Assembly: GCA_903871465.1 (NCBI GenBank)
Contig: CAIQHB010000047.1
Coordinates: 1-37,458, forward strand
Origin: an uncultured Methanosarcinales archaeon
Lineage (GTDB): Archaea; Halobacteriota; Methanosarcinia; Methanotrichales; Methanotrichaceae
DNA length: 37,458 bases
Reading direction: 5' to 3'
In this document: positions 497 to 33,982 of the stretch, one piece after another
How the letters are laid out: each line of letters begins with the position of its first letter
Numbering within the stretch: the stretch's first letter is position 1
Position numbers and translations under genes: made by a program
Notes under the pieces: model-generated
Seen by the model: the letters and a program-made list of their open reading frames with translations, nothing else
Databases searched by the model: none
Told to the model about the DNA's origin: nothing

Positions 497-3400
497 CTAA
501 TTGTGGAACGATTTCTCTATATCTTTTAAGATCGATTCTGCTTCTTTGAATGCAGCCTTATAGTAGTGAGGAGGACCGTCGCATCGAGCACACTCATATG
601 CAATTAATGCTTGCTTCTTAGCCTCCGAAAACTCGTTGGATTTTATAGCCAGTTGAGCCAAAAAGTTATGAATTTCAGCTTGTTTAAGTCGAAGCTCGCA
701 GCGTTCAGCTATAAATAGAGCCTCTTCAGCACTGAATTTAGCTTGATGAAGGTCTCCCTTTTCCATATACAAAATGGACCAAGCGATTAATATATCCGGT
801 TCTTTTTCTAGCATATTAGTTTTATGACAAGACCTCGTAACTTCCTGCAAGTATTTTTCTGCTTCTTCAATATCTTCCATTTTTTTAGAACTTTGACTAA
901 GATAGGTCGCTAATAGAGCTAAAGATAACGATAATTTTACCTCAATTAATACAGGTTCATGTTCGCGAAACTCGGTTTTCGCTGTCTGTAACGCCTTCCG
1001 TGCTGTTCTTAAAGAAAGACTTATGTATTTGGGTTTTTCCTTGCTTGCGATGAGGTTTACAAATGTACGATAGAGAAAGATATTGGTATCACCCAGACGT
1101 TTTGCCTTTTTCTTCCCTAATTCGATATTAAAGCTATTTGCGATTTCAAGTTCTTTGTTTGCTTTAGCAAAATCACCATAATAGGCTAATATCCGGCTTA
1201 ATAAAAGTCTGGCAAAAGATTCGCTATGGATATCCTTCAAGCTTTTACTGATGTCAATTTTTAGATGCAAACTTTCTTCTGCAGCGGTGAGCTCACCTAA
1301 GCCTAATTGTATTTCAGAAAGATTGGCAAGAGCAGTAGCTTTATTTTTTTCGTTTTGTGCGAAAGGCAAAGCAATTTTAAAAATTGATTCCGCATGCTTC
1401 AGCTGACCTACACGACCGTAGCATAATGCAAGGCTATTTAGAACTGATCCTTGATTATTCCTCTCTATTATTCTTGGAGGTGAATCTTCGCCATTCGGAA
1501 ATAGTCCTTTCAATAGTTTGATGATAATTTGAGAGGCTCCTAGTTTATAATAAAGTACAGTGTTTAATTTTTCTGAGTAGATACTAAATGCTTCATCGTA
1601 AAGACCGGCCTTAACCGTATGGTGATATAGTTCGATTGTGTCTTTGAGATCATCTATGCTTCTCACTGTGGTGGGATTAGCCGCTGATAAATAAAAATTT
1701 CGAAGTTGACTATGTGTATTTTCTTTGTCTATCAATCTTTTATACGCATATTCTCGTACAACAGGATGCAAATTATACAGACCATGTTCTTGGTCAAATG
1801 TGATAAGATTCCGTTCAATAAGTTCTCGCAGAGCTTCCTTTAATAGATTGTCGTCATCAAATGGATTAATTATTTTAATAGCATCATAATTCATTAATGA
1901 TCTAAACGCAGCAACTCGACTCAAAAGTTCTTTAATTTTGGGTTCAAGTTGATTATACGCTAATTCTAAAATATGATGCTCACGCTGCATTAGGTCCGGT
2001 ATTGGATCGTAATAATTTGCTGCATTAATGTCTCTCGGATTTACTGGATCATGAATTATCATGCCCACTAAAATTTGTAAAGCAAGGGGGTGATATGCAT
2101 AATTATCACAAATCCTGCCAATTTCATCTTTTGAACCGTTTATATTCATGGATTGGACATATCGTATTGCGTCCTCCGGATCGAGTCCAGTGAGCTCTAA
2201 CGTCTCACAACTAGAAACGTTGTCTAATTCAAAGGGTAAATGTCGACTCGTTATGAGGATACGGCTTCTAAAATTGCCTGAAGCTACCCATCGCAAAAAC
2301 GTACCTGCATTATAGTCAGTACATCTACGAAAGTCGCTTTGATGGAAGCCTTCAGTTATATCCTCTTGATAGGCTGCGTTTAAACTTGAGTAAGATCGTA
2401 ATTCACGTTCAAATCCGTCAAGAATAATTAAGAACCTTTTCTCACGAAGAACGTCAACCAGCTTCTTTATTCTTTCTTGAACTGAATGGGCTTTGCTTAT
2501 TTCTTCCTTTTTGCATGTATATATCAATGCTTCGTCAATAAATTTATTAAAAAAAGATTCCCGTTCATAAAATGACCACCAAAATATGCCATCGAGTCGG
2601 GCCTCTTTCGGCAAGCGACAAGCTTTCAGGTCTTGGTCTTCGTCCACTAACATTCCTGGCAAGGTTCTTCCCATTATGTCTCGATGTAGCCAAGCCCAAG
2701 CCAGTGAAGTCTTACCCATCCCACCAATAGCTATTAGCGAAAAGATTTGTTCCCTGCTTCCAGTTAGCCACTTAGTTAGTAGTTTTCGCTCCTTCACACG
2801 ACCAACAAACTTACCCTTCATAGGATAAGGATTCCCAAAATATGGCTCGATCGAGATCTCTTTGATGTCATTTGTAGCAGGTACGAGATATGATGATTCA
2901 CTCGCACGATGTGGAAGTTGGAACGGATAAGTACCGTCTTTCACATTGCGGAAGCTTGTTGCATCCAGTGTCCAAAATCCTCCTCGATTATCACTATATA
3001 TTCTAAAATATATCGTACCATTCTGTTCTTCGAGATTTAGCTTAACAAAATTATATGAATTGCTATAATTGCGAGACTCGTAACTTGCCCCAGCGGGAAT
3101 TATCACCGCTTTGCTATCTGGAGTTGTCAATTCCAGAATACCTTGCCGATGCATATGACCACTTAAAATAAAATAGCAATTATCTATAAGGAGCGCATCT
3201 ACATGACCGTGTTCAAAATCTCGAAGCCATTCAAATGGATGATGAAGTAGGGCCACCCTAAAATCTACATCCGTTGAATCATCAAGCGCCTGGCGGATTT
3301 GCCTTTCACCCAATTGAAGTTTTCCACAATCATCATCAGACGATGATAACCACGACGAATTAAGACCAAGGATTCCTATTTTCGACCCTGCTACATTTAT

Positions 3401-3877
3401 TGTCTTTACATAGAAATATTCGTTTTCATCAAAATGTATCTCCTGGCCATCAAAATATTCGTTTATAAAATTTTGGTAGTTATGAAAACGCCCAAGAATA
3501 AAACTACGTGCTTTTTCATTTCCGAGAGATTCATTTGTTTTACTTCGATCTGTAAGAACGTTACTAGCACCTAATGAAAGAGACGTCAAACTATTTCGAT
3601 CTACGTCATGGTTACCTGGAACGATGTATAAGCGATCTTTTGGAACACGTGTCGTCTTCAGCAGATCATCAAAGAACTCCTTGGCCAACTTGTACTCTTC
3701 TGGTTTACTGCTAAATGATATGTCCCCTGTGACAACAATAAAATCAGGCTGTAAATCATTCTTTTGTATGCAATTATTTATATCTTTTAATAGTTCATCT
3801 AAAACAATCTTTTCATCATACACTTGCTGAGTATTAAGATGGATATCTGAGATATGAAGCCATGTGATCTTGCTCAT
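497..3877 (-). CDS. Metallophosphoesterase-STAND NTPase-TPR protein, putative defence/signalling NLR-like protein
   Basis: A 1126-residue three-part protein with no signal peptide, so cytoplasmic. Residues 1-300 form a calcineurin-like metallophosphoesterase with all metal-site blocks visible: D11xH13, G51D52, G88NHD91, H212H213 and G240HMH243. Residues 355-700 form a STAND/NB-ARC-like NTPase with FVGR at 357-360, Walker A GGMGKT at 385-390, Walker B LIILDGFE at 483-490, sensor-like ILITSRH and a degenerate HPLAL motif. The rest is helical TPR-type repeats. The architecture (effector, switch NTPase, ligand-sensing repeats) matches prokaryotic NLR-like proteins, where the repeats sense a trigger and the N-terminal enzyme acts, here plausibly on a nucleotide or nucleic acid. 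The start ATG has an AGAGGG-type ribosome site. It stands alone, AT-rich, beside an att-like scar. A defence role is inference. Confidence 0.85.
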   Translation of the reverse strand: MSKITWLHISDIHLNTQQVYDEKIVLDELLKDINNCIQKNDLQPDFIVVTGDISFSSKPEEYKLAKEFFDDLLKTTRVPKDRLYIVPGNHDVDRNSLTSLSLGASNVLTDRSKTNESLGNEKARSFILGRFHNYQNFINEYFDGQEIHFDENEYFYVKTINVAGSKIGILGLNSSWLSSSDDDCGKLQLGERQIRQALDDSTDVDFRVALLHHPFEWLRDFEHGHVDALLIDNCYFILSGHMHRQGILELTTPDSKAVIIPAGASYESRNYSNSYNFVKLNLEEQNGTIYFRIYSDNRGGFWTLDATSFRNVKDGTYPFQLPHRASESSYLVPATNDIKEISIEPYFGNPYPMKGKFVGRVKERKLLTKWLTGSREQIFSLIAIGGMGKTSLAWAWLHRDIMGRTLPGMLVDEDQDLKACRLPKEARLDGIFWWSFYERESFFNKFIDEALIYTCKKEEISKAHSVQERIKKLVDVLREKRFLIILDGFERELRSYSSLNAAYQEDITEGFHQSDFRRCTDYNAGTFLRWVASGNFRSRILITSRHLPFELDNVSSCETLELTGLDPEDAIRYVQSMNINGSKDEIGRICDNYAYHPLALQILVGMIIHDPVNPRDINAANYYDPIPDLMQREHHILELAYNQLEPKIKELLSRVAAFRSLMNYDAIKIINPFDDDNLLKEALRELIERNLITFDQEHGLYNLHPVVREYAYKRLIDKENTHSQLRNFYLSAANPTTVRSIDDLKDTIELYHHTVKAGLYDEAFSIYSEKLNTVLYYKLGASQIIIKLLKGLFPNGEDSPPRIIERNNQGSVLNSLALCYGRVGQLKHAESIFKIALPFAQNEKNKATALANLSEIQLGLGELTAAEESLHLKIDISKSLKDIHSESFARLLLSRILAYYGDFAKANKELEIANSFNIELGKKKAKRLGDTNIFLYRTFVNLIASKEKPKYISLSLRTARKALQTAKTEFREHEPVLIEVKLSLSLALLATYLSQSSKKMEDIEEAEKYLQEVTRSCHKTNMLEKEPDILIAWSILYMEKGDLHQAKFSAEEALFIAERCELRLKQAEIHNFLAQLAIKSNEFSEAKKQALIAYECARCDGPPHYYKAAFKEAESILKDIEKSFHN

Positions 3878-15074: not shown

Positions 15075-16676
15075 TCAAGTTACCGTGTACTGTATCCAGA
15101 GCCTTTCCGGACCTGCATCCCATTGCAGTCTCTTCTGGAAGGATTCCCATTCCTTATCAGTCGCCTCCATTGGTTTGCTTATTGATCCGCTCTCAGGAAT
15201 TCGGTCGCTGCGCAGCACCCTGCCCCTGGCCATCTCCATGAGCCTTGCGGTCAGTTTCTCATCAGGATGATCCCATCCCATCACATCTTTAGCCCATTTT
15301 TCATCAACAGGAATCAATGCAACCAGTTCGATGCTCGCCATCATCTCCAGCCCTTTCTCCCGCAATGTTGCGTTCCGGCTTCCGTGATGCCCTACCTTGT
15401 AGAGCACTGTTCTCGCGATCAGGTCGGCTCCAGTTACCCTCCCTTTTGCCCCGTCCGTTGCCGCTCCTGCCGTCCCCGTCTCAACACTCTGCTGCCACGT
15501 TAGCTTCTGCCAGGATAGCCAGTTGCCCACCTGAGCATCCCCTGCGAAGAGGAGAACTTTAGGGGGATTCGTTTCCGTCAGCTCAAAAGCCAGCACGAGG
15601 CTGGTGTTATTGGTCATGCTATTAATGCTCAAAGCGATCTGGCCGGCCGCCTCCAGCCAATCCGACTCGATCCACCTCCACTCTTGATCCATCTTTTCGC
15701 CTCTGGAAAAACCGTAATGCTTTGCAAAAAAACTGCCGAATTTCGGATGCCCCTTCGCTTTATTCTCAGGGATTACGAGATCTTTGTCGAAGGGATTGGA
15801 GCGATTGAATAGATCATCATCCCCGGATAAGGCCGCACCCGTTGCGGCCGATGCTGCAGCCATAAAAGCCATATCGCCGTCTATCGCGGCATGACTGAGA
15901 TATGTCTCATTCAGCCCTTCGAGCTTCTTGAGAGACTCGATATCCTTGGGCGGGCCAAGGACATAGCACTTGACGCCTTTTACGCCCGGCAGGGAGAAGG
16001 GCGCCTCGCCCGGCCTGCGATAATCCTCGGGTCTCTCCAGCTTTTTGTCGACCCAGGATCGTATAGCACTCAGAGCATTGGCATTACGACCTGATGAGAC
16101 GGACGTGGTGCTCGCTAATGCCGCATTTTCATCAGCATGGTCCGGGCTTTGGCCGGAGTTTTGATTGGATTCCAAACCCGGCTCAAAATCGAGAATTCCC
16201 TCCAGTCGCTCTCCGAGTGGATTACCGGCCAGCTTCAGCCGCGATACAGCAGCGTTCAGGGCTCGAATCTTTACGCCGTATTGCGCCTTGAGCTGTTTTG
16301 CCACCGGGTCGCTGGGGTCCTCGGTCCAGGCCAGCCAGAGATTGTCGATCTTCATCTTTCCGAATGAGGACTCACCTTGCAGGAAGCCCGATATATGGTC
16401 TGTATGCTCATGGGTGACAGCTATCACGTGCAGATGATTGTTGGTGGCTTTTGCGATATCCGAAGCCACAAGCATCAGCCTCTCCTTGCCTCCTGTCCAC
16501 TTTTGATGAACACCGCAGTCGATGAGCACATAACGCGCCTCACCGGTATCTGACCGGAATGCGAGAAGGAAGCAGTCACCAAAGCCGGTATTGTACATTC
16601 GAACAGCAACACCCTTCGCCGGTGGAACCAATGTCGTATCGGTTGCTGTTGGGGCTATAATCTCCTTCGCCGGCAT
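15075..16676 (-). CDS. MBL-fold hydrolase (ComEC/Rec2-like metallo-beta-lactamase)
   Basis: About 533 residues. The N-terminal half has MYNTGFGDCFLLAF, LIDCGVHQKW and the metal motif T-H89EHTDH94ISGF. Later segments typical of ComEC-type MBL enzymes are LLFAGDAQVGNW and KVGHHGSRNATL. It lacks membrane helices and a signal peptide, so it is a cytoplasmic hydrolase and not a DNA channel. The substrate is unknown; nucleic acid, nucleotide or ester phosphates are possible. The start is the ATG at 16676 in TGATG, overlapping the stop of the upstream metallopeptidase and preceded by GGAGGAG, so the two are translationally coupled. Confidence 0.85.
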   Translation of the reverse strand: MPAKEIIAPTATDTTLVPPAKGVAVRMYNTGFGDCFLLAFRSDTGEARYVLIDCGVHQKWTGGKERLMLVASDIAKATNNHLHVIAVTHEHTDHISGFLQGESSFGKMKIDNLWLAWTEDPSDPVAKQLKAQYGVKIRALNAAVSRLKLAGNPLGERLEGILDFEPGLESNQNSGQSPDHADENAALASTTSVSSGRNANALSAIRSWVDKKLERPEDYRRPGEAPFSLPGVKGVKCYVLGPPKDIESLKKLEGLNETYLSHAAIDGDMAFMAAASAATGAALSGDDDLFNRSNPFDKDLVIPENKAKGHPKFGSFFAKHYGFSRGEKMDQEWRWIESDWLEAAGQIALSINSMTNNTSLVLAFELTETNPPKVLLFAGDAQVGNWLSWQKLTWQQSVETGTAGAATDGAKGRVTGADLIARTVLYKVGHHGSRNATLREKGLEMMASIELVALIPVDEKWAKDVMGWDHPDEKLTARLMEMARGRVLRSDRIPESGSISKPMEATDKEWESFQKRLQWDAGPERLWIQYTVT

Positions 16677-18685
16677 CACATCTCCTCCTCCCGCCGCAGC
16701 CGATGTAGGCTGGCAATGGGCTCCAAAATCAAACCCTGCTCGCCATTGAATTGAGAAAATTCTTTGCCGGGATCGCCCAGATACGTGGCTTGCAAAGACG
16801 GACCGGACCCGCTCTGAAGATATTTACGCATCCGTTCGATGCGATTCTGGCTTGATAGGTCCTTGTAAATGCAGTACCTGACCCTTGCCGTTTCCAGGTC
16901 AACCAGGAGAGTGCAACCGCCTCGGAAGACGAAGTCGGGCTCCATTGGTGCCAATTCGCCGCTCTCAACCTTCCTTTGTTTTTCCGCGTCATAGTATCCA
17001 CGACGGCGCTGAGTCATTTCTATGACAAGCTCGGTGACGGTCTGGCCGCCTGGCCCGATGCGGCGTGCCGGGCGAATAGAGTGAACCTCCAGCTCAGGTA
17101 GACCATCTTTATCCCGATAGACGGCATCCGTCTTATTCTTATCCAGTTTGTCCATCTGCAGGTGGGCTGCTTCAGCCGCGGCAAGGGCTCCGGGGTCCAT
17201 GAACCATTGGTGCAGAGTTCTCCGGCATTCCCTGGTTTGAAGGAAGACCTTTTCAGGATCTGATCCCCGGTTCCAGCGAGGGAACAGCTTTTGCAGGCCA
17301 TCCGGTCCGTGGAATAGCAACTCGAATTCCTTTTGCTCAATCTCCGTCGGTTCATGCCAGAGCAGGCTCTCCACAGACAGGTTCCGGACATCGTGCGGAT
17401 AGATGCCGCGCCTCCGGAAGGCATCGATGATGGCGAGCCGGTAGTTCTGGGAATCGTACGTGACCAGGCTTTCGTCTGCCGTGATCAGAGCCCGCAGATA
17501 GTCGCCAAAATCCGTATCCACAGGCGGACAGTAGTCCAGAGCCCGAATGCAGATATTCAGGATGTGTCCGGACGTCTTGGCAGCCTCCTCGGCCAGTCGC
17601 TCCACCAGGTCGGAGCTGATTTCGCCGGGGTTAAGGATGCCGGTTCCCGCGGTTGCCAGCCGCAGAAGATCCTGTATCCGCGACTTGTAGATGGTTAGAA
17701 AGGCATCGAAGACCGCGGCCACAAAGATCGCGCCACGGTCGTGCGGCTCGTTCGCCTGCAGGATATCTCCGGGATCGGGCAGCTTTGCCGTCCACTTCTT
17801 CGTCTGGGGATCGATGTCGCCTATGGCGCTTCGCAGGGCACCATACTGTCCAAGGGCCTGCCCAAACTGGAATGCCAGCTCCCCCAAGAAGCTCTGGTCC
17901 TGAAGATTTCCTCTGGTGCGGGCAATCTGGTTCTTTAAAACGCCCGGGTAGGTGAAGTGCTGGAAGAGGGCCACAACATCGGCCAATGCCTCATGCAGAG
18001 CCAGAACATCCATATTGGACGGCTCCATGAACCTGGGGTGGAGGCCGTCTATCAGGGCATGAGTAGTCTCGTGGGCCACAATGTCATGAGAGAGACAGGC
18101 GAAGACCGTCTCCCCTGGCATGTCCTGACTGTACTTTGTGGACGATGCAGGAAAATAGCCAAACAAGAGCGCCTTTTTTGCGGAGCTGTAGTAGGCATTG
18201 GCTTCCCGCAGTGCATGAGGATAGATTCTGAGACGCTCCACGTACTCCTCCTCATATATTCCATTAACCAGGGTGTGCCGGCTGGACCAGAGAGCCCGGC
18301 GGCCCAGGGCCTGCTCGAAATGGTCTATGGTCTTCCTGGCAACAGCATAGACCATCTGCTGGTGAAACTGCGGGTTTCCTTCTGATGGAGGGAGACCATC
18401 CTGAGCGAGCAGCTTCGGTTCATTCAGGTTGACAGGGGCATAGAAAGCCTGGCTGGCAGGATCGTAGTCCACGACTTCAAGATAACTGTCGGTCGGCCCA
18501 TAGTCCACATCGTCCTCCCAGGGGACCTCGATAGTTACCAGGTTGACCTCATAGGTCTCCAACTGCCGGCTCAGTATAGGGTCAAAGGCAAAGGCGCGCA
18601 ACCTCCGGCAAGGCGGAATTGGCGTTTTAACAACATCCAATTGCGGCATCATGGAGGAGGGCCGCTTTTCGCAAGATTCGGGCAT
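16676..18685 (-). CDS. HExxH metallopeptidase (gluzincin-like)
   Basis: About 669 residues from the ATG at 18685, which follows GGTGA at suitable spacing (an upstream TTG at 18700 is also possible). The zinc motif is H205ETTH209ALIDG with the downstream third ligand in H231EALADVVALF (E232, D236). This HExxH-E spacing is that of thermolysin-type gluzincins. No signal peptide or propeptide is visible, so unlike thermolysin it appears intracellular. Long helical regions follow the catalytic part, and a C-terminal beta-rich region contains FRGGCTLLVDLETARVRYCIYK. It is coupled to the MBL-fold gene. The pairing of an intracellular protease and a hydrolase suggests a shared conflict or processing function (inference). 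Confidence 0.75.
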   Translation of the reverse strand: MPESCEKRPSSMMPQLDVVKTPIPPCRRLRAFAFDPILSRQLETYEVNLVTIEVPWEDDVDYGPTDSYLEVVDYDPASQAFYAPVNLNEPKLLAQDGLPPSEGNPQFHQQMVYAVARKTIDHFEQALGRRALWSSRHTLVNGIYEEEYVERLRIYPHALREANAYYSSAKKALLFGYFPASSTKYSQDMPGETVFACLSHDIVAHETTHALIDGLHPRFMEPSNMDVLALHEALADVVALFQHFTYPGVLKNQIARTRGNLQDQSFLGELAFQFGQALGQYGALRSAIGDIDPQTKKWTAKLPDPGDILQANEPHDRGAIFVAAVFDAFLTIYKSRIQDLLRLATAGTGILNPGEISSDLVERLAEEAAKTSGHILNICIRALDYCPPVDTDFGDYLRALITADESLVTYDSQNYRLAIIDAFRRRGIYPHDVRNLSVESLLWHEPTEIEQKEFELLFHGPDGLQKLFPRWNRGSDPEKVFLQTRECRRTLHQWFMDPGALAAAEAAHLQMDKLDKNKTDAVYRDKDGLPELEVHSIRPARRIGPGGQTVTELVIEMTQRRRGYYDAEKQRKVESGELAPMEPDFVFRGGCTLLVDLETARVRYCIYKDLSSQNRIERMRKYLQSGSGPSLQATYLGDPGKEFSQFNGEQGLILEPIASLHRLRREEEM

Positions 18686-18792
18686 CAAACAATTCACCAA
18701 CCGATAACTTGATCAGGTATATGTTTGAACTGTTATAAAAACATATTTTGCAGGATGTGGTAACAGCAGGGCGAGGCCATCACATTTGGTTT

Positions 18793-19644
18793 TCAACCCA
18801 ACTCGAAGCTCGTTACGCCATAGATTCTATCCATCGGTAGGCCTGGGTCTTCCCTGGTGTACATGCGCACAGTCTCGAATACGGGATGCATATGGTGACG
18901 TTTGGCCAGATCCAGTGCAGCAGAGTTTTGCTCAGGCGTATCCAGGAAGACCGGCGCACCCTGGGGGGCATGGCCGCAAAGAGCAGAGAACAGATCATCA
19001 GCCGCCTTCTTATCATTGGCGAAAAGCGGCCCTATTTTGTGGCCTTGATGGCATTCCCTGAGGACACCGTAACCCACCAGTTCACCCTTGTTCAGGGCTC
19101 CGATGGCGATCCCTCCCGGCTGCCTGATCCATGATTTGGTGAATGCGTGCCTGGGGGCAGGAAAGAACTGGTCGTCATAGGCTAGTAGATCTTCCATGGG
19201 CACTTCTGAGAGGTATTTTATCCCCTCAGCTCCGCGTTTTTGCCCTATCCCAGTTCCCTGGTGGCGCACGCTCCTGTAACATGGCTGGAAACCCTTCCGC
19301 TCATACTGCGTCTGCTGCGCAAGGACTCCATCAAGCCCGATATTCCTGCCTTCTAAGTGCTTCATCCCCACGTTCCAGATCTCTGTGCCCAATCCCCGCC
19401 CTCTGAACGGAGGTTGGACTATGTAAAACCCCAGGAATCCAAAAGAGTCTCCGTAGGCTACTACCGAGATGCTTGCTACTGGTTTGCCTTCGAATATCCC
19501 CACGAAGAAGCCTTCCGGATCTGCTGCAAAAAAGGTCTCAGCATCGTGAATACCGGGATTCCATCCTTCGGAACCGGCCCAGGATATGGCGAGATCAAAT
19601 TCGCGCCGGGTCATCTTTCTGACCATGTACCCTTCTATTGACAT
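18793..19644 (-). CDS. Double-domain GNAT N-acetyltransferase
   Basis: A 283-residue acetyltransferase starting at the ATG at 19644, which has a perfect AGGAGGTG six bases before it; a GTG at 19653 lies inside that ribosome site. The N-terminal GNAT domain (1-140) shows FFVGIFEGKPVASISVV, LGFYIVQPPFRGRGLGTEIW (acetyl-CoA loop R/Q-x-x-G-x-G/A) and YERKGFQPCYRS. The C-terminal half (150-283) is a second GNAT-like domain of the YitH/Acetyltransf_18 kind (GALNKGELVGYGVLRE, IGPLFANDKKAADDLF). The substrate is unknown. Single gene with its own upstream region. Confidence 0.88.
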   Translation of the reverse strand: MSIEGYMVRKMTRREFDLAISWAGSEGWNPGIHDAETFFAADPEGFFVGIFEGKPVASISVVAYGDSFGFLGFYIVQPPFRGRGLGTEIWNVGMKHLEGRNIGLDGVLAQQTQYERKGFQPCYRSVRHQGTGIGQKRGAEGIKYLSEVPMEDLLAYDDQFFPAPRHAFTKSWIRQPGGIAIGALNKGELVGYGVLRECHQGHKIGPLFANDKKAADDLFSALCGHAPQGAPVFLDTPEQNSAALDLAKRHHMHPVFETVRMYTREDPGLPMDRIYGVTSFELG

Positions 19645-19653
19645 TTCCGGCAC

Positions 19654-25128: not shown

Positions 25129-25469
25129 GCCTAAAACTTTCTTTGAAAGGGTCCCAAGCTTGTTCATCTGGAGATACATCTTTAGCTGTATATCGCTTAG
25201 GCTTATCGGTTTGTTTATCGTCTTCGCACATCTCATCATCCATCCTACGAAGAGTTTAGAGACTCACCGATATTTATTACTATCTCCATTAACTATAACA
25301 GCCTTAAAAAATCGAAGTTTTCAAAAGAAGTTAAATGCATTGATTTAGGGAAATTAGCTACCTTGTTTTGACAGGCATTCCAAGATACTGTTAGATACCT
25401 AAGACTTTACAGAACTTCCCATCGTTAGGATTTTATAGTGGATTCTGCTATCTGATGAACGGTGAGGAG
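25129..25469. other. Right end of the element and upstream region of the transporter operon
   Basis: A 62-codon hydrophobic frame at 25160-25348 starts only with TTG, has no ribosome site and is not supported. The right inverted repeat (25356-25415) ends here, leaving just 55 bases to the start of the substrate-binding-protein gene. The operon promoter must therefore lie inside or next to the repeat. Confidence 0.35.
25356..25415 (-). repeat. Right 60-bp terminal inverted repeat
   Basis: The reverse complement begins GTTCTGTAAAGTCT, continues GGTATCT at the same spacing as the left end, then ATGCCTGTCAAAAC and GGTAGCT. Identical spacing over 60 bases rules out chance. Confidence 0.85.
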
Positions 25470-26594
25470 ATGAAAAGGCAAGCTCTTATCGGCGGTATCA
25501 TCCTAGTTTTGGTCATTCTAGGCGGAATTGGCTATAATCTGATCACTCCAACAAATGCTGTAGTCGTAAATATCGGCCATATTGGACCACTGACAGGAGA
25601 TGCAGCTATGTATGGGGAAATGGAGAAACAGGGTATCGATCTAGCTGTGGCAGAGACAGAGGCCAACGGTGGGATCAAGGGCGATCAACTAAAGGTCATC
25701 CACGAGGACGATCAGGCTAACCCTACATCGGCAACAAATGCTATCAATAAATTAATTACTGTCGATAAAGTTGTCGCTGTAATTGGGGAATTACAAAGTA
25801 CGACCACGTTGGCAATTGCACCTATTGCGGAAAGGAACAAGGTCGTCTTAATTTCCCATGCAGCTAACTCAAACAAGCTCTCAGGTATAGGTGAATATAT
25901 ATTCCGAATTTATCCCACCAATACTGAGGAAGGTCAAAAACTTGTGGAACTTGCTTCTTCGCTAAATTTAACAAATGGTGCTACTCTCTACGTCAACAAC
26001 GATTTTGGCACAGACCTAGAAAGTGCTGTCGATAAAGCTTTTACTGAAAATGGAGGCAGCATAGCAATTTCAGAAGGATACAATCCTGACGCAACCGATT
26101 TCAGAACCCAATTGACAAAAATCCAGGCAAAGAATCCTAGCGTGATCTTTCTTCTCGGATACCCCAAAGATATGGCCATGATATTGAGACAAGCGAAAGA
26201 GATTGGATTAAAGTCTCAGTTCCTTGCAGACGACACCTTCAACTTACCCCAAATCATTGACTGGAGCGGAAATGCCACAGAAGGTGTTATTTTCGTTGTT
26301 CCGTCAAATGGAGATCCCAGCCGGTGGCAGGATTTCAATCAAAAAATCAAGGGCAAATACGGAGAAAACGCCACTATCATAACTGCCATGGCTTATGATG
26401 CAACAAAACTATTGGTAGCTGCTATGGAGAACAGCGGCACAACATCAGATGCGATAAAGACCGGACTCACTCAGATCAAGGATTATCCTGGTGTTACGGG
26501 AAATATCACTTTTGATAAAAACCACGATGTGGTAACCCGATTATTCGACACCCAGATTGTGAAAGGCGGGAAGTTTGTGGAGTATGCGGCGTAG
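25470..26594 (+). CDS. LIV-type ABC transporter substrate-binding protein (Peripla_BP_6)
   Basis: About 374 residues, starting at the ATG at 25470 just after GGTGAGG (the upstream ATG at 25455 has no ribosome site). An N-terminal hydrophobic segment (ALIGGIILVLVILGGIGYNLI) acts as signal or membrane anchor; no lipobox Cys is present. The type I binding fold is clear: VNIGHIGPLTGDAAMYG, AVAETEANGGIKGDQLKVIHEDDQANPTSATNAINKLI, AVIGELQSTTTLAIAPIAE and GYPKDMAMILRQAKEIGL. Family ligands are branched-chain or other amino acids, amides and aromatic acids. It opens the operon, and the matching permeases and ATPases follow only after three conflict-type genes. Confidence 0.9.
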   Translation: MKRQALIGGIILVLVILGGIGYNLITPTNAVVVNIGHIGPLTGDAAMYGEMEKQGIDLAVAETEANGGIKGDQLKVIHEDDQANPTSATNAINKLITVDKVVAVIGELQSTTTLAIAPIAERNKVVLISHAANSNKLSGIGEYIFRIYPTNTEEGQKLVELASSLNLTNGATLYVNNDFGTDLESAVDKAFTENGGSIAISEGYNPDATDFRTQLTKIQAKNPSVIFLLGYPKDMAMILRQAKEIGLKSQFLADDTFNLPQIIDWSGNATEGVIFVVPSNGDPSRWQDFNQKIKGKYGENATIITAMAYDATKLLVAAMENSGTTSDAIKTGLTQIKDYPGVTGNITFDKNHDVVTRLFDTQIVKGGKFVEYAA

Positions 26595-26726: not shown

Positions 26727-27749
26727 ATGGCCACTTTAGTCTGGGATAACAACCTAATCAATTTGAGGGATCTCCTAGCTGATTTGTATTGGGATAGGTC
26801 AGAATCGCGCCGGATCGTGCAACAAGCCAGACTCAACGCTGGTTTAATCGCCTTCAACGATTCTCCAATCAACAATTGGCACATCATTTTGGATCGTGCC
26901 AGACAGGACGCTGCATGCGTAGATGCCATCATTGATGTTGCCATCGGCGAGCAGCCGCGGTCGAAACAGGAGTTGTTGGCCAGGGCTAAAGAGCACATGC
27001 TGCTCAACCTTCGCGGGGTTGATATTAAAGATGTGAATTGGAAACACCCGTTGGATTCTGTTCAACTCGAACAAATCACTGGCAAACAAAGCACATTGCT
27101 TGAAATCTCATTTTTGGAGCAGGGGCTGCAACGAGCTAAAGCCGTTGCGCGGATAGATTTGGGTGAGTGCGGCAGCGGGTCTGGTTTTCTGATCGGCGAT
27201 GACTTGCTGCTGACAAACAATCATGTGCTGGAAGATAAGACACAGGCGCGGGCAGCTAAGGTGCAGTTCAATTACCAGAAAACATTGAGAGGGCTGAATG
27301 CCTCCTACGATGAGTATGATCTCGACCCAGACGGCCTGTTCAAGACCTCGAAGGATAACGATTGGACTGTGGTAAGAGTCAAGCCCAAGCAAAGTAAGTT
27401 GGCGGGCGAAAAGTGGGGGTCGCTAAGACTTAGTGAGCAGCATCCCAAAGCAAATGATTTTACTATCATTATCCAGCACCCCGGCGGTGGGCCAAAGCAA
27501 ATTGCGCTATACCATAATGTTATAACGTTCATTGACTCAGCCAATCGCTTTGTGCAATACCTAACCGATACGTTACCTGGATCATCCGGCTCGCCGGTGT
27601 TCGATACGGATTGGAATGTAATTGCATTACACCATAGCGGTGGATGGCTGCGAGAGCAGGGCAAAGATCCTGGGAGAGAGTTTTACCGTAACGAAGGTAT
27701 TCACATAAACGCAGTTATTTTGGGATTGAAGGATGCAGGTGTAACCTAA
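26727..27749 (+). CDS. EAD1-fused V8/trypsin-like serine protease
   Basis: A 340-residue cytoplasmic protein (no signal peptide). Residues 10-90 are an effector-associated domain 1 (EAD1): LRDLLADLYWDRSESRRIV, then GLIAFNDSPINNWHIIL, ending QELLARAKEH. Residues 140-335 form a V8/HtrA-like protease with a complete triad: H166 in LLTNNHVLED, D212 in DNDWTVVRV and S287 in LPGSSGSPVF. A substrate-pocket loop reads ALHHSGG. EADs are known to recruit effectors to partner proteins carrying the same EAD class in bacterial and archaeal conflict systems; the next gene carries such a domain. GGAG lies 8 bases before the ATG. Its codon use is more GC-rich than that of the two genes after it. Confidence 0.9.
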   Translation: MATLVWDNNLINLRDLLADLYWDRSESRRIVQQARLNAGLIAFNDSPINNWHIILDRARQDAACVDAIIDVAIGEQPRSKQELLARAKEHMLLNLRGVDIKDVNWKHPLDSVQLEQITGKQSTLLEISFLEQGLQRAKAVARIDLGECGSGSGFLIGDDLLLTNNHVLEDKTQARAAKVQFNYQKTLRGLNASYDEYDLDPDGLFKTSKDNDWTVVRVKPKQSKLAGEKWGSLRLSEQHPKANDFTIIIQHPGGGPKQIALYHNVITFIDSANRFVQYLTDTLPGSSGSPVFDTDWNVIALHHSGGWLREQGKDPGREFYRNEGIHINAVILGLKDAGVT

Positions 27750-27750
27750 T

Positions 27751-28845
27751 ATGGCGAACATGAAATGGTCCGATTACCACCAGGAACTAGAGGATGTTTT
27801 TTCCGAGTTGTATTTAGAGACACCAAGCATCCGGCGCATCATGAACCAAGCTGGTTTAGACCCCAGATTTATTAATTTTAACGGTTCTTCAGTGAATATA
27901 TGGGATCAAATCATCGAGATAGCAGATCAGGAAATGTTAATAAGTCTTATAATAAATGCGATGAAAGATCATCCCAGAGATAAACGATTGTGGAAATTGC
28001 ATAAAGAACATACAGTCTCGAAGGAAAAAGAACCGAATGATGAGTTGCGTGAACTCATTTTAGTAGAAATTAAGTTTGTCATCGCTGCAATGAAGTGGAA
28101 AGATGCTTCTGGAATCATAAAAGAAGACGGCCTTGAGAGGGGTGCTATATGGAATGGAGTGAATTCTAATTTGTATTTCCAGGAGATAAGTAAAGAGCTG
28201 AAAAAAATTGGCATTAATAATTTGGTTAATAGATATGGCTCAACTAGATGCGACTGGAAGCCATTATTGGATTCCGGAAAGGATTCTAAAATGGATTCTG
28301 CAGATAATATAGAATGTATAATACGCGATGTATGCAAAAAAATAGAAGATATAAGTGAGCGCAGAGGCGGTAAAAGGACAAGAATCAAGCCCTGTTTTGA
28401 ATCTAAATTCCTTGGTGATGATGAGGATAAAAGAAAGGGAGAAAAGGCTGAACTAAGGAATAATAACTCGGAATACGTGCTGATAATAGATGCCATTTCG
28501 ATCTTTGATCCGATATTAGAGGAACGTCTGAATTTTTCGGGATTAATTCATAATCCCAAGGTAGCTGTAATTATCGTTTACCCAATTAATTCAATGTCAT
28601 TTGAGATTAATAGATTGATTGAAAAAATGATATCTGAAAGATTAAATGATGCGCACATTAGATTTTATGAAGACCTTGATAAGCTATGCGACATAAGTAT
28701 CGGAAATCAGGCCACTTTTAACCGTAGGCTTGATTGTATCCTAACTCAAAAGGTCGAAAATGCCAGCGTCCTTAGAGCGAATTCATTGAGTAGAGAGTTA
28801 CAATCAAGAAAATTAGGAGGAACGACAGGGTTTTTGCCCACATGA
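27751..28845 (+). CDS. EAD1 adaptor-like protein with unknown C-terminal domains
   Basis: A 364-residue soluble protein starting one base after the protease stop. Residues 8-90 are a second EAD1 (LEDVFSELYLETPSIRRIMNQAGL, INFNGSSVNIWDQII, DHPRDKRLWKLHKEH), clearly alignable with that of the protease (LY, RRI, QA, FN-S, N-W, I, A-Q, K-L, KEH). A helical middle (95-180) follows. From about residue 240 there is an alpha/beta region with strands YVLIIDAISIFDP and KVAVIIVYPINS, a possible Rossmann-like domain without visible catalytic residues. It probably docks the protease through EAD1-EAD1 pairing and links it to the ATPase encoded next (inference). Confidence 0.75.
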   Translation: MANMKWSDYHQELEDVFSELYLETPSIRRIMNQAGLDPRFINFNGSSVNIWDQIIEIADQEMLISLIINAMKDHPRDKRLWKLHKEHTVSKEKEPNDELRELILVEIKFVIAAMKWKDASGIIKEDGLERGAIWNGVNSNLYFQEISKELKKIGINNLVNRYGSTRCDWKPLLDSGKDSKMDSADNIECIIRDVCKKIEDISERRGGKRTRIKPCFESKFLGDDEDKRKGEKAELRNNNSEYVLIIDAISIFDPILEERLNFSGLIHNPKVAVIIVYPINSMSFEINRLIEKMISERLNDAHIRFYEDLDKLCDISIGNQATFNRRLDCILTQKVENASVLRANSLSRELQSRKLGGTTGFLPT

Positions 28846-28866
28846 TGAGGATTCGGGAGAGATACG

Positions 28867-30777
28867 ATGATTTGCACATTTTATTCCTATAAAGGCGGTG
28901 TAGGCCGGTCTATGGCGCTCGCAAATATAGCTTGGCTGCTCTACAATAAAGGACATAAAGTTATGATGATCGATTGGGACTTGGAAGCACCAGGTCTTGA
29001 GAGATTCTTTTATAAAAAAAGTGAAACTATAGAAAGGATTAAAAAGAAACCTGGGCTTATGGATATGCTTTTGGATTATAAATTTAATATTTCTAAAGAA
29101 CTGCATATAAACCGGAAAAAAGATTTGCCTTATTTGAAGCCAAAGAAGATAGCGTTTAAAATATTTAGTGATCCCGGGGGCGCGGAACTCCGATTGCTTA
29201 CTGCGGGAAGAAGATCGAAAGAGTATTATTCTAAATATGTAAACTCCGTTAATAGCTTCGATTGGATAGACTTTTATAAAAATTGGGATGGAGAGTTATA
29301 CTTCGAGTGGCTTAGGGAGCAGCTTGAGTTGAGTATGGATATCGTTCTAATAGATAGCAGAACGGGCGTGAATGAGATAGGTGGAGTCTCCGTCAGCCAG
29401 CTCGCGGATGTTGTAGTAATGTTCTGTGCACCTAATGAGCAAAATTTAGAAGGCACCAAAAAATTAGCTAACAAGTTTAGCAAGTCTGGATTCCTAAATC
29501 TACGTCAAAAACAAAATAGAAAAGTGAATCTAATAATTGTACCCTCAAGGGTGGAAAATGCGGAGATTGACCAATTAACTGAGTTTCAGAGTGATTTTGC
29601 AGAAAGCTTCTCTAGATTTGTTCCTTATGAACTAAAAATAGGGAACGTACCTGCAGGGCTTTTTGACCGAATTTCTGTAGATAAGATCAAACCGGAGATT
29701 GCACCTTTTTGGAAGCTAATGATACCCTATACACCATATTATTCATTTAAAGAACGTTTGGCAGTAAGCGCAACAGAAATAGCCTCCAAGCCCCTAACTG
29801 ATGCCTATACTATTCTCGCTAAAGATATATTGAAATTTTATCCGCGCAAAGAAGAATTAGAAAGCATATCTGATATTAGTTGGTTAGAAAGCATATCTGA
29901 TATTAGTTGGGGGAATATCAAATCGAAATCTTCCACTATTAATGAGTATAGAAGTACTGCCGAAGATCTGATTAAAAACGCAGAGGATTCAATTTATCTA
30001 ACATGTATCTATCCCCCGGAATTTTGGATTATAGGAAACTATCTATTTAATTGGGACAAACTTGGAACTAAGTATGACTATGGAGAACGACTTAAAAACC
30101 ATTTTAGATATTTAATTCCCTTTGACACATTTGATGATAATGAATTACAGGATATTGAGTTTAAAAAGGAAAATAAATATAAAATTAATGCCGAAATATC
30201 AAACTGTCAGATTTTTTCTATTGAACTCAAAGAAAATTTTGCTTTGCTAAACTCTAAATATCTTAGGAAAGGATTGGAAGACGTGAAATTAATTACGAGA
30301 AGAAAAAGCGATGACGACCCGCTATATATTTACTCAGGAAATTACAAATCTAATGATTTAGACTCTTACAAAAAATTTTGCGATTTGATCAGTGACAAAA
30401 CGGGCCTAGAGAGAATAAGAATTTTTATAACAGATATTTATGGCGATGATCTAGACTGGAAAAGAGATGCAACAATCGTAAACCAATTTATTAGAGATTA
30501 TAATAAAAATATAAAACTTCGTATTTGTTCGGCAAGAGATCCTAGTGTCGCTCAGTTTTATCTTGGTGATATGATGATAATTGATAAAAAAATTGTTTTA
30601 ATGTATGATCCGAATAAAGCAGAACCAAATGGGGAGAGGAGGGGACGCATACAATTAATTACTGGAGATATTGTCAAAAGATACCTTGAAATATTCCAAA
30701 TTGGAAATGAGTTAAAAGAACCAAAGGATTATTGGGGGGAGATGCTAGATAGTGATAACGCAGGCCACAATGATTAG
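28867..30777 (+). CDS. KGGVGR-type SIMIBI (MinD/ParA-like) ATPase with extra C-terminal domain
   Basis: A 636-residue protein. The deviant Walker A reads Y-K9GGVGR14S, keeping the first signature Lys of MinD/ParA but with Arg in place of the usual P-loop Lys. It is followed by MIDWDLEAPGL (A' motif) and the Walker B region VLID163SRTG. This is the KGGVGR-style SIMIBI group seen in prokaryotic conflict operons. Residues 355-625 form a second domain (EYRSTAEDLIKNAEDSIYLT..., FIRDYNKNIKLRIC..., MMIIDKKIVLMYD..., LITGDIVKRYLEIF) laid out like a PLD-superfamily half but without the HKD histidine, so perhaps a binding domain. A 27-base in-frame tandem duplication lies in the linker. GGGAGAG precedes the ATG. 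Its end overlaps livH. Confidence 0.85.
   Translation: MICTFYSYKGGVGRSMALANIAWLLYNKGHKVMMIDWDLEAPGLERFFYKKSETIERIKKKPGLMDMLLDYKFNISKELHINRKKDLPYLKPKKIAFKIFSDPGGAELRLLTAGRRSKEYYSKYVNSVNSFDWIDFYKNWDGELYFEWLREQLELSMDIVLIDSRTGVNEIGGVSVSQLADVVVMFCAPNEQNLEGTKKLANKFSKSGFLNLRQKQNRKVNLIIVPSRVENAEIDQLTEFQSDFAESFSRFVPYELKIGNVPAGLFDRISVDKIKPEIAPFWKLMIPYTPYYSFKERLAVSATEIASKPLTDAYTILAKDILKFYPRKEELESISDISWLESISDISWGNIKSKSSTINEYRSTAEDLIKNAEDSIYLTCIYPPEFWIIGNYLFNWDKLGTKYDYGERLKNHFRYLIPFDTFDDNELQDIEFKKENKYKINAEISNCQIFSIELKENFALLNSKYLRKGLEDVKLITRRKSDDDPLYIYSGNYKSNDLDSYKKFCDLISDKTGLERIRIFITDIYGDDLDWKRDATIVNQFIRDYNKNIKLRICSARDPSVAQFYLGDMMIIDKKIVLMYDPNKAEPNGERRGRIQLITGDIVKRYLEIFQIGNELKEPKDYWGEMLDSDNAGHND
29857..29910 (+). 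repeat. 27-bp perfect in-frame tandem duplication
   Basis: Bases 29857-29883 and 29884-29910 are identical and encode LESISDISW twice, in the linker between the ATPase domain and the C-terminal domain. The lack of any mismatch indicates a recent event or selection for copy number. Confidence 0.95.
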
Positions 30778-31648
30778 CCAGCTATTTATTAATAGTCTCA
30801 TCGCGGGCAGTATTTATTCACTTATGGCTATAGGCTTTGCGATCATCTATAAAACTGTAAAATTTTTTCATTTTGCTCATGGAATTGTCTACGCTACAGG
30901 CGCCTATATCACTTATACATTTTTCCAAATCCATAGATTTGATTTCATATCTTCCTTTATTCTGGCGGTTGTATCATCCGGTTTACTCGGATTGCTAATC
31001 TATCAATTTGTCTATCGCACTCTTCAGGTAAAGAAAGCCCCGAATCTAATTTATCTTTTGGCCTCGTTTGGCGTTTTTATTTTCATCGAGAATATCATCG
31101 CTTTGATTTATGGGAATCAAATACTCTTTATGCGGCCTCTAGCGGAGGCATCCAGTTATTCTTTTTTTGGAGCGTCGATAACATTGACGCAGATTGTCAT
31201 CATTGTCGTCTCAATAGCGACCCTTTTGGCCCTATGGATTTTTATCGAGAAGACAAAACTCGGATTGGCCTTGAAAGCTGTGGCAGACGATCCTCAAGCT
31301 GCACAACTGGTCGGGATTGACTCTGTTCGGTTGACACAGGTAGCCTTTTTCGTAGGTTCTGTACTTGCAGGTGTTGCTGGAGTTTTGATATCACTGGAAA
31401 CGAACCTTAGCCCAACCATGGGGTTTCCCGCGATTTTTAAAGGCATTATCGCATCTATTATCGGAGGGATGGGGAGCATTCCTGGCGCAGTCGTCGGAGG
31501 GTTTTTCTTGGGGTTTGTTGAGAATTTTGGTATCTGGTATATTCCCTCAATATGGCAGGATTTTATTTCATTTACCTTCCTTATTGTATTTCTCGTCCTG
31601 AGGCCTTCAGGCTTTTTTGGTGTAATCCCAGAAAAGGAGCTGATATGA
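30752..31648 (+). CDS. livH: LIV-type ABC transporter permease LivH
   Basis: About 298 residues with eight or so transmembrane helices. The sequence follows LivH: FINSLIAGSIYSLMAIGFAIIYKTVKFFHFAHG at the N-terminus, KTKLGLALKAVADDPQAAQLVGID (the EAA-like cytoplasmic loop that docks the ATPase), and a Gly-rich GIIASIIGGMGSIPGAVVGG. The GTG at 30752 sits 9 bases after GGGGGGAG, giving a 26-base overlap with the ATPase gene; a start at the ATG at 30770 (ATGATTAG, 8-base overlap) also fits the family. Either way translation is coupled to the SIMIBI ATPase. It forms the channel with LivM. Confidence 0.9.
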   Translation: MITQATMISQLFINSLIAGSIYSLMAIGFAIIYKTVKFFHFAHGIVYATGAYITYTFFQIHRFDFISSFILAVVSSGLLGLLIYQFVYRTLQVKKAPNLIYLLASFGVFIFIENIIALIYGNQILFMRPLAEASSYSFFGASITLTQIVIIVVSIATLLALWIFIEKTKLGLALKAVADDPQAAQLVGIDSVRLTQVAFFVGSVLAGVAGVLISLETNLSPTMGFPAIFKGIIASIIGGMGSIPGAVVGGFFLGFVENFGIWYIPSIWQDFISFTFLIVFLVLRPSGFFGVIPEKELI

Positions 31649-31649
31649 G

Positions 31650-32519
31650 ATGGAATACGAACTGCATCTTTTCATCATAACTGGAATATTTGTGATTCTC
31701 GCCCTGAGCCTGAATCTGGTACTTGGATACCTGGGCCAACCTGCATTAGGTCACGCCGCATTTTTTGCTATCGGTGCTTATACTTCCAGTTTATTGGCAT
31801 TGAACGCAGGTATTTCACCCTGGATTGGCTTGTTTATCGGTGCATCATTTGCAGCAATTTCTGGTATGATAATAGGTCATTTGACTTTTCATTTAAAGGA
31901 AGACTATTTTGGACTGGCTACTTTTGGGTTTGGCCTTATTATATATAGCGGCATAAATAATTTGACTGATGTGACCCGTGGTCCCATGGGTCTCCCAGGA
32001 ATACCACAATTCATCGCATTTACTGATTTGTACAACTCTCTTATTTTTTATTGTATCCTTATTCTACTATTTGTTTTAATTACTATTTTTTTAACAAGAA
32101 GGATAATATATTCACCCTTTGGAAGGGTTGTACAATCAATAAGAGATGATGAACTGGCTGCAGAAGCTCTTGGAAAAGATACACGACAGGTCAAGATCAT
32201 GATTTTTACGATTGGCGCTTTTTTTGCCGGGATCGCAGGAAGTCTATATGCCCATTATATCACCTTCATAGATCCATCTAGTTTTAATGTTATGGAATCT
32301 ATTCTCGTTGTGCTTATGGTGATTCTCGGTGGCATGGGAACAATTGGAGGGCCTATCATTGGGGCAGCTGTACTGATCCTTTTCCCAGAAATGTTACGAT
32401 TTATCGGTATTCCAGATGCTGTCGCCGCTCCATTAAGGCAGATGATTTACGGCTTTTTATTGGTAATTCTTATCATCAAGAGACCGCAGGGATTGGTCGG
32501 CAAGTACAAATTATGGTAG
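31650..32519 (+). CDS. livM: LIV-type ABC transporter permease LivM
   Basis: A 289-residue membrane protein with the LivM signature LSLNLVLGYLGQPALGHAAFFAIGAYTSSLL, the ATPase-docking loop SPFGRVVQSIRDDELAAEALGKDTRQVKIM, and LVVLMVILGGMGTIGGPIIGAAV. One base separates the LivH stop from its ATG, and GGAGCTGAT is the ribosome site. The length is shorter than in long bacterial LivM proteins but common in archaea. It pairs with LivH as the membrane channel. Confidence 0.9.
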   Translation: MEYELHLFIITGIFVILALSLNLVLGYLGQPALGHAAFFAIGAYTSSLLALNAGISPWIGLFIGASFAAISGMIIGHLTFHLKEDYFGLATFGFGLIIYSGINNLTDVTRGPMGLPGIPQFIAFTDLYNSLIFYCILILLFVLITIFLTRRIIYSPFGRVVQSIRDDELAAEALGKDTRQVKIMIFTIGAFFAGIAGSLYAHYITFIDPSSFNVMESILVVLMVILGGMGTIGGPIIGAAVLILFPEMLRFIGIPDAVAAPLRQMIYGFLLVILIIKRPQGLVGKYKLW

Positions 32520-32526
32520 GTTGATC

Positions 32527-33297
32527 ATGCCATTTCTGATTCTGGAAAATCTGTCAAAGCATTTTGATGGGAACCTCGTATTGGACAATGTCTCTCTTCA
32601 GCTGAAGGAAAGAGAACTTGTCGCAATGATCGGTCCAAATGGTTCAGGCAAGACAACCTTGTTCAATGCGATATCAGGGTTTTTAAAGCCGGATCAGGGT
32701 AAAATTATCTTCAAAGGAATTGAAATTAATAATCTTCCTCCAAATAAAATAGCAAGGCTAGGGATTACTAGATCATTCCAGAGAATTCGTCTCTTTCACC
32801 AGTTGTCCGTCCTCGATAACATGTTACTTGCAGCAAGATACAATGAAGGTGAAAAACTATTCAGCGCATTATTTCGAACTCGATTGATCCATAAAGAAGA
32901 AGAAGAAAATATCAAAAAGAGTTTGGAATATTTATCTTTTGTTGGATTATTTGATAAAAAAGATTCTTTAGGTGAGAATCTATCCTTTGGACAACGAAAG
33001 CTACTTGAATTGGCAATGGCATTTGCTTCTGATGCAGACCTAATTTTGCTTGATGAACCGACATCTGGCGTCTTTCCTGAAACGAAGGCCAAAATAATTC
33101 AAAACATTCAAAAATTGAACGAAGATGGGAAAACAATTCTTTTCATTGAACATGACATGGAACTTGTCATGCGATTAGCGAAGCGAATAATTGTTTTGGA
33201 TCATGGAAAATTGATCGCTGATGGTCATCCAGATGAAATCGTCAACAATGAACATGTCTTAGACGCATATTTTGGCAAGAGGAAATCCTATGCTTGA
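32527..33297 (+). CDS. livG: LIV-type ABC transporter ATPase LivG
   Basis: A 256-residue ABC ATPase. Walker A is IGPNGSGKTTL, the signature is LSFGQRKLLELAMA (the usual LSGGQ is relaxed to LSFGQ, as often in LivG), Walker B is LILLDEPTSGV, and the switch His is in LFIEHDME. The start is the ATG at 32527 rather than the TTG at 32521; AGGTTG precedes it. It powers transport with LivF. Confidence 0.92.
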   Translation: MPFLILENLSKHFDGNLVLDNVSLQLKERELVAMIGPNGSGKTTLFNAISGFLKPDQGKIIFKGIEINNLPPNKIARLGITRSFQRIRLFHQLSVLDNMLLAARYNEGEKLFSALFRTRLIHKEEEENIKKSLEYLSFVGLFDKKDSLGENLSFGQRKLLELAMAFASDADLILLDEPTSGVFPETKAKIIQNIQKLNEDGKTILFIEHDMELVMRLAKRIIVLDHGKLIADGHPDEIVNNEHVLDAYFGKRKSYA

Positions 33298-33982
33298 AGC
33301 AAAAAATCTTACAGCGTTCTACGGACCACTGAAAGCGTTGGATAGTGTTTCATTCAAAATATCTGATCACGAAATTATTGCATTCATCGGACCTAATGGC
33401 TCGGGCAAATCAACAGCCGTCAAAACAATATTTGGGTTTGTGGATAAGATTGATGGCGAGATTATCTTCAATGACCGAAATATCAAAGGTATTCCTCCCA
33501 ACGAATTGGTAAATCAAGGGATCTCATTAGTTCCGGATGGAAAACGAATATTTTCCTCCCTAACTGTATTAGATAATATTGTTTTAGGCGGATACCTCCT
33601 CAAAAAAGGAAGAAGTGAACAGATCGATAAAATACTTGATTTGTTTCCGCAAATGAGGGAAAAATTACATCAGAGAGCGGGAACTCTGAGTGGCGGAGAA
33701 CAACAGATGCTTGCAATCGGAAAAGCTCTGATGCTAAATCCAGCATTGTTAATCTTGGATGAACCGTCATTAGGACTATCACCAAATTATATAAACATAA
33801 TATATGAAAAAATAAAAGAGATCAACAATCAAGGCACCGCAGTATTAATAATTGAACAAAATATAGAGAAAGCCTTGGAGTGTGCTCACCGAGCATATCT
33901 GTTTAGATTAGGAAAAATCATTTTTGAAGGGCCATCCAAGAGTTTGCTTGATCCTGAAATAAGGAAATCGCTATTAAGATAA
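33290..33982 (+). CDS. livF: LIV-type ABC transporter ATPase LivF
   Basis: A 230-residue ABC ATPase. Walker A is IGPNGSGKSTAVK, the signature LSGGEQQMLAIGKALM, Walker B LLILDEPSLGLSP and the switch region VLIIEQNIEKALE. The start is the ATG at 33290 (MLEAKNLTAFYG, standard LivF opening) with AAGAGGA seven bases upstream, overlapping the livG stop by 8 bases. It is the last gene of the operon. The opposite-strand Cap15-like gene follows with only 70 bases between the stops. Confidence 0.92.
   Translation: MLEAKNLTAFYGPLKALDSVSFKISDHEIIAFIGPNGSGKSTAVKTIFGFVDKIDGEIIFNDRNIKGIPPNELVNQGISLVPDGKRIFSSLTVLDNIVLGGYLLKKGRSEQIDKILDLFPQMREKLHQRAGTLSGGEQQMLAIGKALMLNPALLILDEPSLGLSPNYINIIYEKIKEINNQGTAVLIIEQNIEKALECAHRAYLFRLGKIIFEGPSKSLLDPEIRKSLLR

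Follow-up and report, generated by a model that had tools for sequence, protein, structure and literature searches.

ComEC-like MBL hydrolases accompanied by trypsin-like proteases, as in Hachiman and AVAST, or by a caspase, as in canu, have been described as pro-nucleases (Tuck et al., Science 2025, PMC12799240). According to the text of that report, the partner must cut two disordered insertions of the MBL for defence, and cleavage releases a DNase; further protease families are mentioned there without being named in the text. As far as the text describes them, the HamM/HamA, Avs1a/Avs1b, Lamassu and DRT pairs combine a ComEC-like MBL bearing long insertions with an adjacent, co-evolving protease, as does the gene pair analysed here, and in both cases the genes are patchily distributed and mobile, with the protease often fused to another domain. 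The published pairs have a trypsin-like protease and an upstream MBL, whereas here the protease is thermolysin-like and the MBL lies downstream. In canu the MBL is likewise downstream of the protease gene, and two of our loci (L009 and L012) include a caspase; canu as presented in that text, however, places the caspase directly before the MBL and includes Ig-like and TPR domains, whereas in our loci a gluzincin directly precedes the MBL and no CanB was seen.

The EACC1 and VMAP-type conflict systems (Kaur et al., eLife 2020, PMC7159879) resemble our loci in that a peptidase-containing core stays the same while the effectors vary, and in their caspases and TPR domains, but their core genes are different and the portions of that paper drawn on here mention no MBL or gluzincin pair. 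We found no description of a gluzincin–MBL pair in a literature search that took in the text of PMC12799240; the protease families in fig. S2 of that report lie outside the search, and the figure may already draw a metalloprotease clade.

The gene pair in its window

The DNA analysed here (the window, 37,458 nucleotides) is contig C47 of the host genome (3.13 Mb, 81 contigs), which carries methyl-coenzyme M reductase; the host is therefore a methanogen. Two minus-strand genes from the list of open reading frames (ORFs) form the pair. The gluzincin protease gene occupies 16676-18700 if read from TTG (674 aa) or 16676-18685 if read from ATG (669 aa), and the shorter reading corresponds to the 669-residue protein of the initial annotation. 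The ComEC-like MBL hydrolase gene, recognised also by profiles and model, spans 15075-16679 from GTG (534 aa) or begins at the ATG at 16676 (533 aa). The TGATG stop/start coupling that had been noted between them is present at 16674..16678, where the minus-strand junction reads GGAGGAGGAGATGTGATGCC, one base being common to the protease TGA and the MBL ATG, with the purine-rich GGAGGAGGAG just before it. Absence of signal peptides was likewise upheld: neither protein has a hydrophobic leader within its first 60 residues, the best 15-residue mean hydropathy being 0.33 for the protease and 0.75 for the MBL. The G+C content is 53–58% across the pair vs 33–54% in the remaining 1-kb steps of the window.

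No third partner or sensor was recognised at the window copy, which looks like a bare two-gene core. Unlike the gated MBL pairs, it has no HamAB, STAND, SMC or RT core beside it in the window, and none of the 20 ORFs scanned, from 48 listed, encodes a STAND protein. A neighbouring GNAT gene (18793-19653) was considered as a third partner and rejected as a chromosomal gene, since it occurs in 11 of 26 genus genomes including the window's own and DNA similarity to relatives stops where this gene ends (18790-18797). A tblastn search of the window found no remnant of the caspase or metzincin that occur at L012.

Folds and active sites of the two hydrolases

The AlphaFold2 model of the protease (mean pLDDT 88.8, pTM 0.92) aligns over residues 28-446 with M36 fungalysins (Z 24.3–24.7) and M4 thermolysin-type enzymes (Z 17.3–19.3), and the next structural group follows only from Z 9.8. 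Within this minus-strand-encoded catalytic fold, HETTH (residues 210-214) and HEALAD (236-241) supply H210, E211, H214 and E237 (with D241), and H320 lies at what we take, from sequence context as well, to be the place of thermolysin His231. Seven residues (H210, E211, H214, H236, E237, D241 and H320) are invariant in all 79 aligned proteases. Nearly all good structural matches stop near residue 446; the remaining C-terminal region (residues 447-674; 16676..17362, minus strand), modelled as helices and a four-stranded sheet, is an addition relative to thermolysin and fungalysin.

The thermolysin fold is known mainly from secreted enzymes. M4 and M36 peptidases share both fold and the HExxH...ExxxD...H site with our protease but are secreted with an N-terminal propeptide, whereas here there is neither leader nor propeptide and the fold begins at residue 28. 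Also in contrast to those families, the protease has no match in Pfam or NCBIfam at E up to 0.1; nor did it match PADLOC models or PDB sequences. A profile built from 79 rows returned a Bacillus neutral protease as its sole match (E 0.36), with the register correct over HExxH...E. The gluzincin motif originally proposed is thus an intact HExxH...E site in a thermolysin-type fold (Z 17–25), and the model supports an assignment as an intracellular thermolysin-fold gluzincin.

For the MBL (mean pLDDT 84.5, pTM 0.85), the AlphaFold model aligns best with the ComEC MBL domain 9ic4 (Z 22.8, rmsd 2.9, 253 residues aligned, chain of 266), in agreement with the initial description of an HxHxDH hydrolase as ComEC-like. 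The Pce phosphorylcholine esterase (Z 20.2) and then RNase J (about Z 15) follow. By profile the protein has defence MBLs, not ComEC, as its nearest matches, with hits to the PADLOC models LmuA (2.7e-12), 6A-MBL (3.2e-8) and Avs1a (3.9e-7) vs 0.03 for ComEC_Rec2, and defence MBLs are also nearest to the MBL at L009, a divergent locus; for AVAST type 1, the Avs1a model scores 29.1 bits vs a cut-off of 420. The metal motifs, beginning with HEHTDH (residues 90-95), include H90, H92, D94, H95, D381, H431 and H432, invariant in 76 of 76 MBLs. Because of this invariance, in 79/79 proteases and 76/76 MBLs, the active-site motifs of both proteins are not due to chance.

Fold and metal motifs are common to our MBL and the ComEC domain, but ours is soluble, has no membrane channel and carries about 214 extra residues between the motifs, H95 and H431 being 336 residues apart vs 122 in 9ic4, as counted on the alignment. 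The insertion-rich stretch between HxHxDH and TNNTS (about residues 125-344; 15648..16307, minus strand) contains candidate gating loops, modelled at low confidence at residues 171-200 and 251-300 (pLDDT 50–55), as well as the conserved motifs WTED, LGPP and WRxI. Inside the lowest-confidence loops no position is more than 80% conserved except at the edges (E258, P296-F297), and P296-F297 are the only invariant positions by them; the loops thus show no strongly conserved site at which the protease would cut.

Pairing, partners and distribution

A profile scan of about 85,000 genomes, one per species, found at least 545 protease relatives; the best 80 of these were analysed as genome loci, together with 8 plasmid loci. 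In 85 of these 88 loci the next gene after the protease, on the same strand, encodes an MBL relative, and in 81 of the 85 an in-frame MBL start lies between −30 and +40 bases from the protease stop. Two of the three unpaired loci are at or near a contig edge; L050 lacks the MBL. Among 30 further loci, drawn from weaker and stronger matches and including two repeats of loci already in the set (L118 and L136), the MBL was paired in 19, some with very divergent proteases, and unpaired in 11; its frame is broken up in L128 and L138. Related intracellular thermolysin-like proteins with no MBL neighbour occur at L091, L115-L117, L129, L130, L133, L140 and L143, and in the unpaired clade L115-L117 a neighbouring gene is similar to the metzincin-like gene 3' of the L012 pair.

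The two proteins have histories that run in parallel. Across 75 loci with both proteins in the alignments, the protease and MBL trees have 37 of 72 splits in common (at most 2 after shuffling), with a correlation of 0.81 between their distances (at most 0.11 after permutation), in trees made with FastTree only and with a contribution from shared species history. This congruence and the constant adjacency bear out the earlier suggestion that the two proteins act together. The pair is clearly widespread rather than bound to one lineage, as was found when its conservation was checked across genomes.

A recognised partner accompanies the pair in 42 of the 88 loci and none in 46, some of which are short of upstream DNA. 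Most common is a subtilase fused to the protease N-terminus (20/88). A co-directional patatin-type gene lies within 100 bases in 14 of the 88 (one of them downstream) and also accompanies the later loci L119, L120, L121, L124 and L135; L067 has both this gene and the fused subtilase. Alpha/beta-hydrolases are among the swappable partners, which include fused LCAT/esterase-like hydrolases (L021, L026 and L053; Pfam tally, members identified by sequence), Tle1-like or DUF2235 proteins (L042, L008), PLD proteins (L007, L071), caspases (L009 and, interrupted, L012) and TPR-S fusions in two loci (by sequence L017 and L018). Partner labels change at least 11 times on a 98-row tree, unlabelled rows excluded. 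The protease domain itself occurs in tandem in L044 and L059; at L044 (8108-16804) the system stands twice in succession, and it is the first protease that has two tandem domains. Of the additional partners anticipated by the initial annotation, caspase was encountered, whereas no recurrent STAND or vWA gene appeared beside the pair in a non-exhaustive scan of neighbours.

At L012 (7735-9924) an M6-like peptidase is fused to a caspase-like domain in which a TAG stands directly past SGHGGQ, with the frame open to SDSCHSG. A pyrrolysine reading of this codon was rejected, as no PylS match in the L012 genome was over the cut-off.

Distribution is patchy. No protease was found in the 59 other genomes of a 60-genome set of host relatives, and the host alone of 392 genomes drawn from its phylum has one, so that horizontal transfer of the protease is likely. 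A second archaeal copy is L012 (Euryarchaeota archaeon ADurb.BinA087); the other nearest relatives among the best 80 of at least 545 are L011, L013 and L028 (Dehalococcoidia, Anaerolineae, Chloroflexi). The window copy groups with L012, L011 and L013 in both protease and MBL trees, and this placement fits a likely horizontal transfer of the pair in either direction. In Bradyrhizobium, the genus of L046, a protease relative is present in 30 of 146 genomes, three of them already known carriers. By tblastn, 108 plasmid records have a protease relative, all below 60% identity, and an integrase gene lies within about 10 kb at 4 of 7 annotated plasmid loci (L003-L009). At L005 the pair is directly followed by genes for a DUF1837 protein and a DEAD/DEAH helicase, which we take to be a Hachiman pair. 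Viral carriage of the module was rejected, as IMG/VR yielded just one weak protease relative, without the MBL.

To examine the neighbourhood, 140 ORFs were sampled around the loci and another 140 from other regions of the same genomes, with ORFs over 1000 aa excluded and 21 dropped from each set. The resulting 119 neighbour proteins, from 20 genomes, matched 54 PADLOC families vs 13 for 119 controls, a count of overlapping models and not a rate per protein.

Proposed protease gating and its alternatives

MBL fold class, insertions and co-evolution match the pairs in the text of PMC12799240, and for this reason we read our pair as the same device with a thermolysin-like protease. Under this reading, the ComEC-type MBL would be a metal-dependent nuclease kept inactive by the inserted loops that separate its metal motifs. 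The intracellular protease, translated together with it and triggered by infection or damage, would cut these loops and free an indiscriminate DNase, leading to arrest or death of the cell. The third hydrolase, whether a fused subtilase or an adjacent patatin, lipase, PLD or caspase, could act as the triggering protease or as an additional toxic effector, the latter then being released by the same thermolysin-like protease. Gating, DNase activity, trigger and defence role are what we infer here, and we lean slightly towards the pair being a protease-gated nuclease module that serves defence or cell suicide. Points against it are that the lowest-confidence loops show no strongly conserved cut site, that neither a sensor nor a third partner was recognised in the window, that 46 of the 88 loci likewise have no recognised partner, and that some protease clades have no MBL (11 of the 30 further loci). 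We do not class the pair within the gated MBL nuclease–protease group, because its protease type differs and gating is part of the interpretation, although it probably works like a member. The conflict or processing module first suggested gains support by analogy with the published pairs and from swappable hydrolase partners and a patchy, plasmid-borne distribution.

Other arrangements of the same parts can be envisaged. The protease and lipolytic partners might themselves be the effectors, with the MBL a phosphodiesterase whose substrate is a signal molecule or the head groups of lipids, so that membranes and not DNA are damaged. The Pce esterase as second-best MBL match (Z 20.2) would fit, as would patatin, PLD, Tle1-like and LCAT-like partners acting on lipids or acyl chains, but we consider it improbable: the MBL profile is nearest to Avs1a, LmuA and 6A-MBL, the commonest partner is a subtilase and not a lipase, and the MBLs of that kind tested in the text of PMC12799240 act on DNA. 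It is similarly doubtful that the pair processes proteins or peptides outside any conflict, for instance in intracellular quality control or product maturation. Such a task would suit two hydrolases that keep their active sites and co-evolve tightly, and a window copy with no recognised effector; patchiness within a genus (30/146), near absence from the host phylum (1/392), 108 plasmid records and swapping partners with toxic potential argue against it.

A further alternative keeps the gated-nuclease chemistry but makes the protease always subordinate to a third gene, so that a core-only copy such as that in the window would be inactive or act in trans. Fusion of 20 of the 88 proteases to a subtilase points this way, and so does the nearest relative, L012, with its stop-interrupted caspase-type gene upstream; we nevertheless think it unlikely, as about half of the loci have both active sites intact and no recognised third gene.

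Returning to the gated-nuclease interpretation, its wider form, which we hold tentatively and at a little under an even chance, is that of an immune module, widespread but unnamed, whose initiator, an intracellular thermolysin-fold protease, would unlock a gated DNase; a proteolytic cascade with subtilases or caspases would often be involved, with lipases alongside, and the module would have passed from bacteria into methanogenic archaea. If this is true, proteolytic nuclease activation would extend from trypsin-like proteases and caspases to a third, unrelated protease fold. A family found in several hundred genomes and missed by the three profile libraries scanned here would gain a name, and a directly testable two-gene system, archaea included, would be available.

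Two caspase-type genes lie elsewhere in the methanogen genome (L144 and L145, on G000 contigs C22 and C49); as labelled by eye, one carries HEAT-like repeats, and an HSP90-like stretch comes after the other. Within the window, 497-3877 encodes a 1126-aa calcineurin-like phosphoesterase with TPR repeats (PADLOC candidate PDC-S60, 2.6e-45; Effector endonuclease model, 5.5e-39). Genes for a ParA-like ATPase, an EAD1 protein and a trypsin-like protein that weakly matches EAD1 stand at 26727-30777, amid an ABC transporter operon for branched-chain amino acids (flanks 25455-26594 and 30752-33982); they are possible conflict genes, either inserted into the transporter operon or coupled to it.
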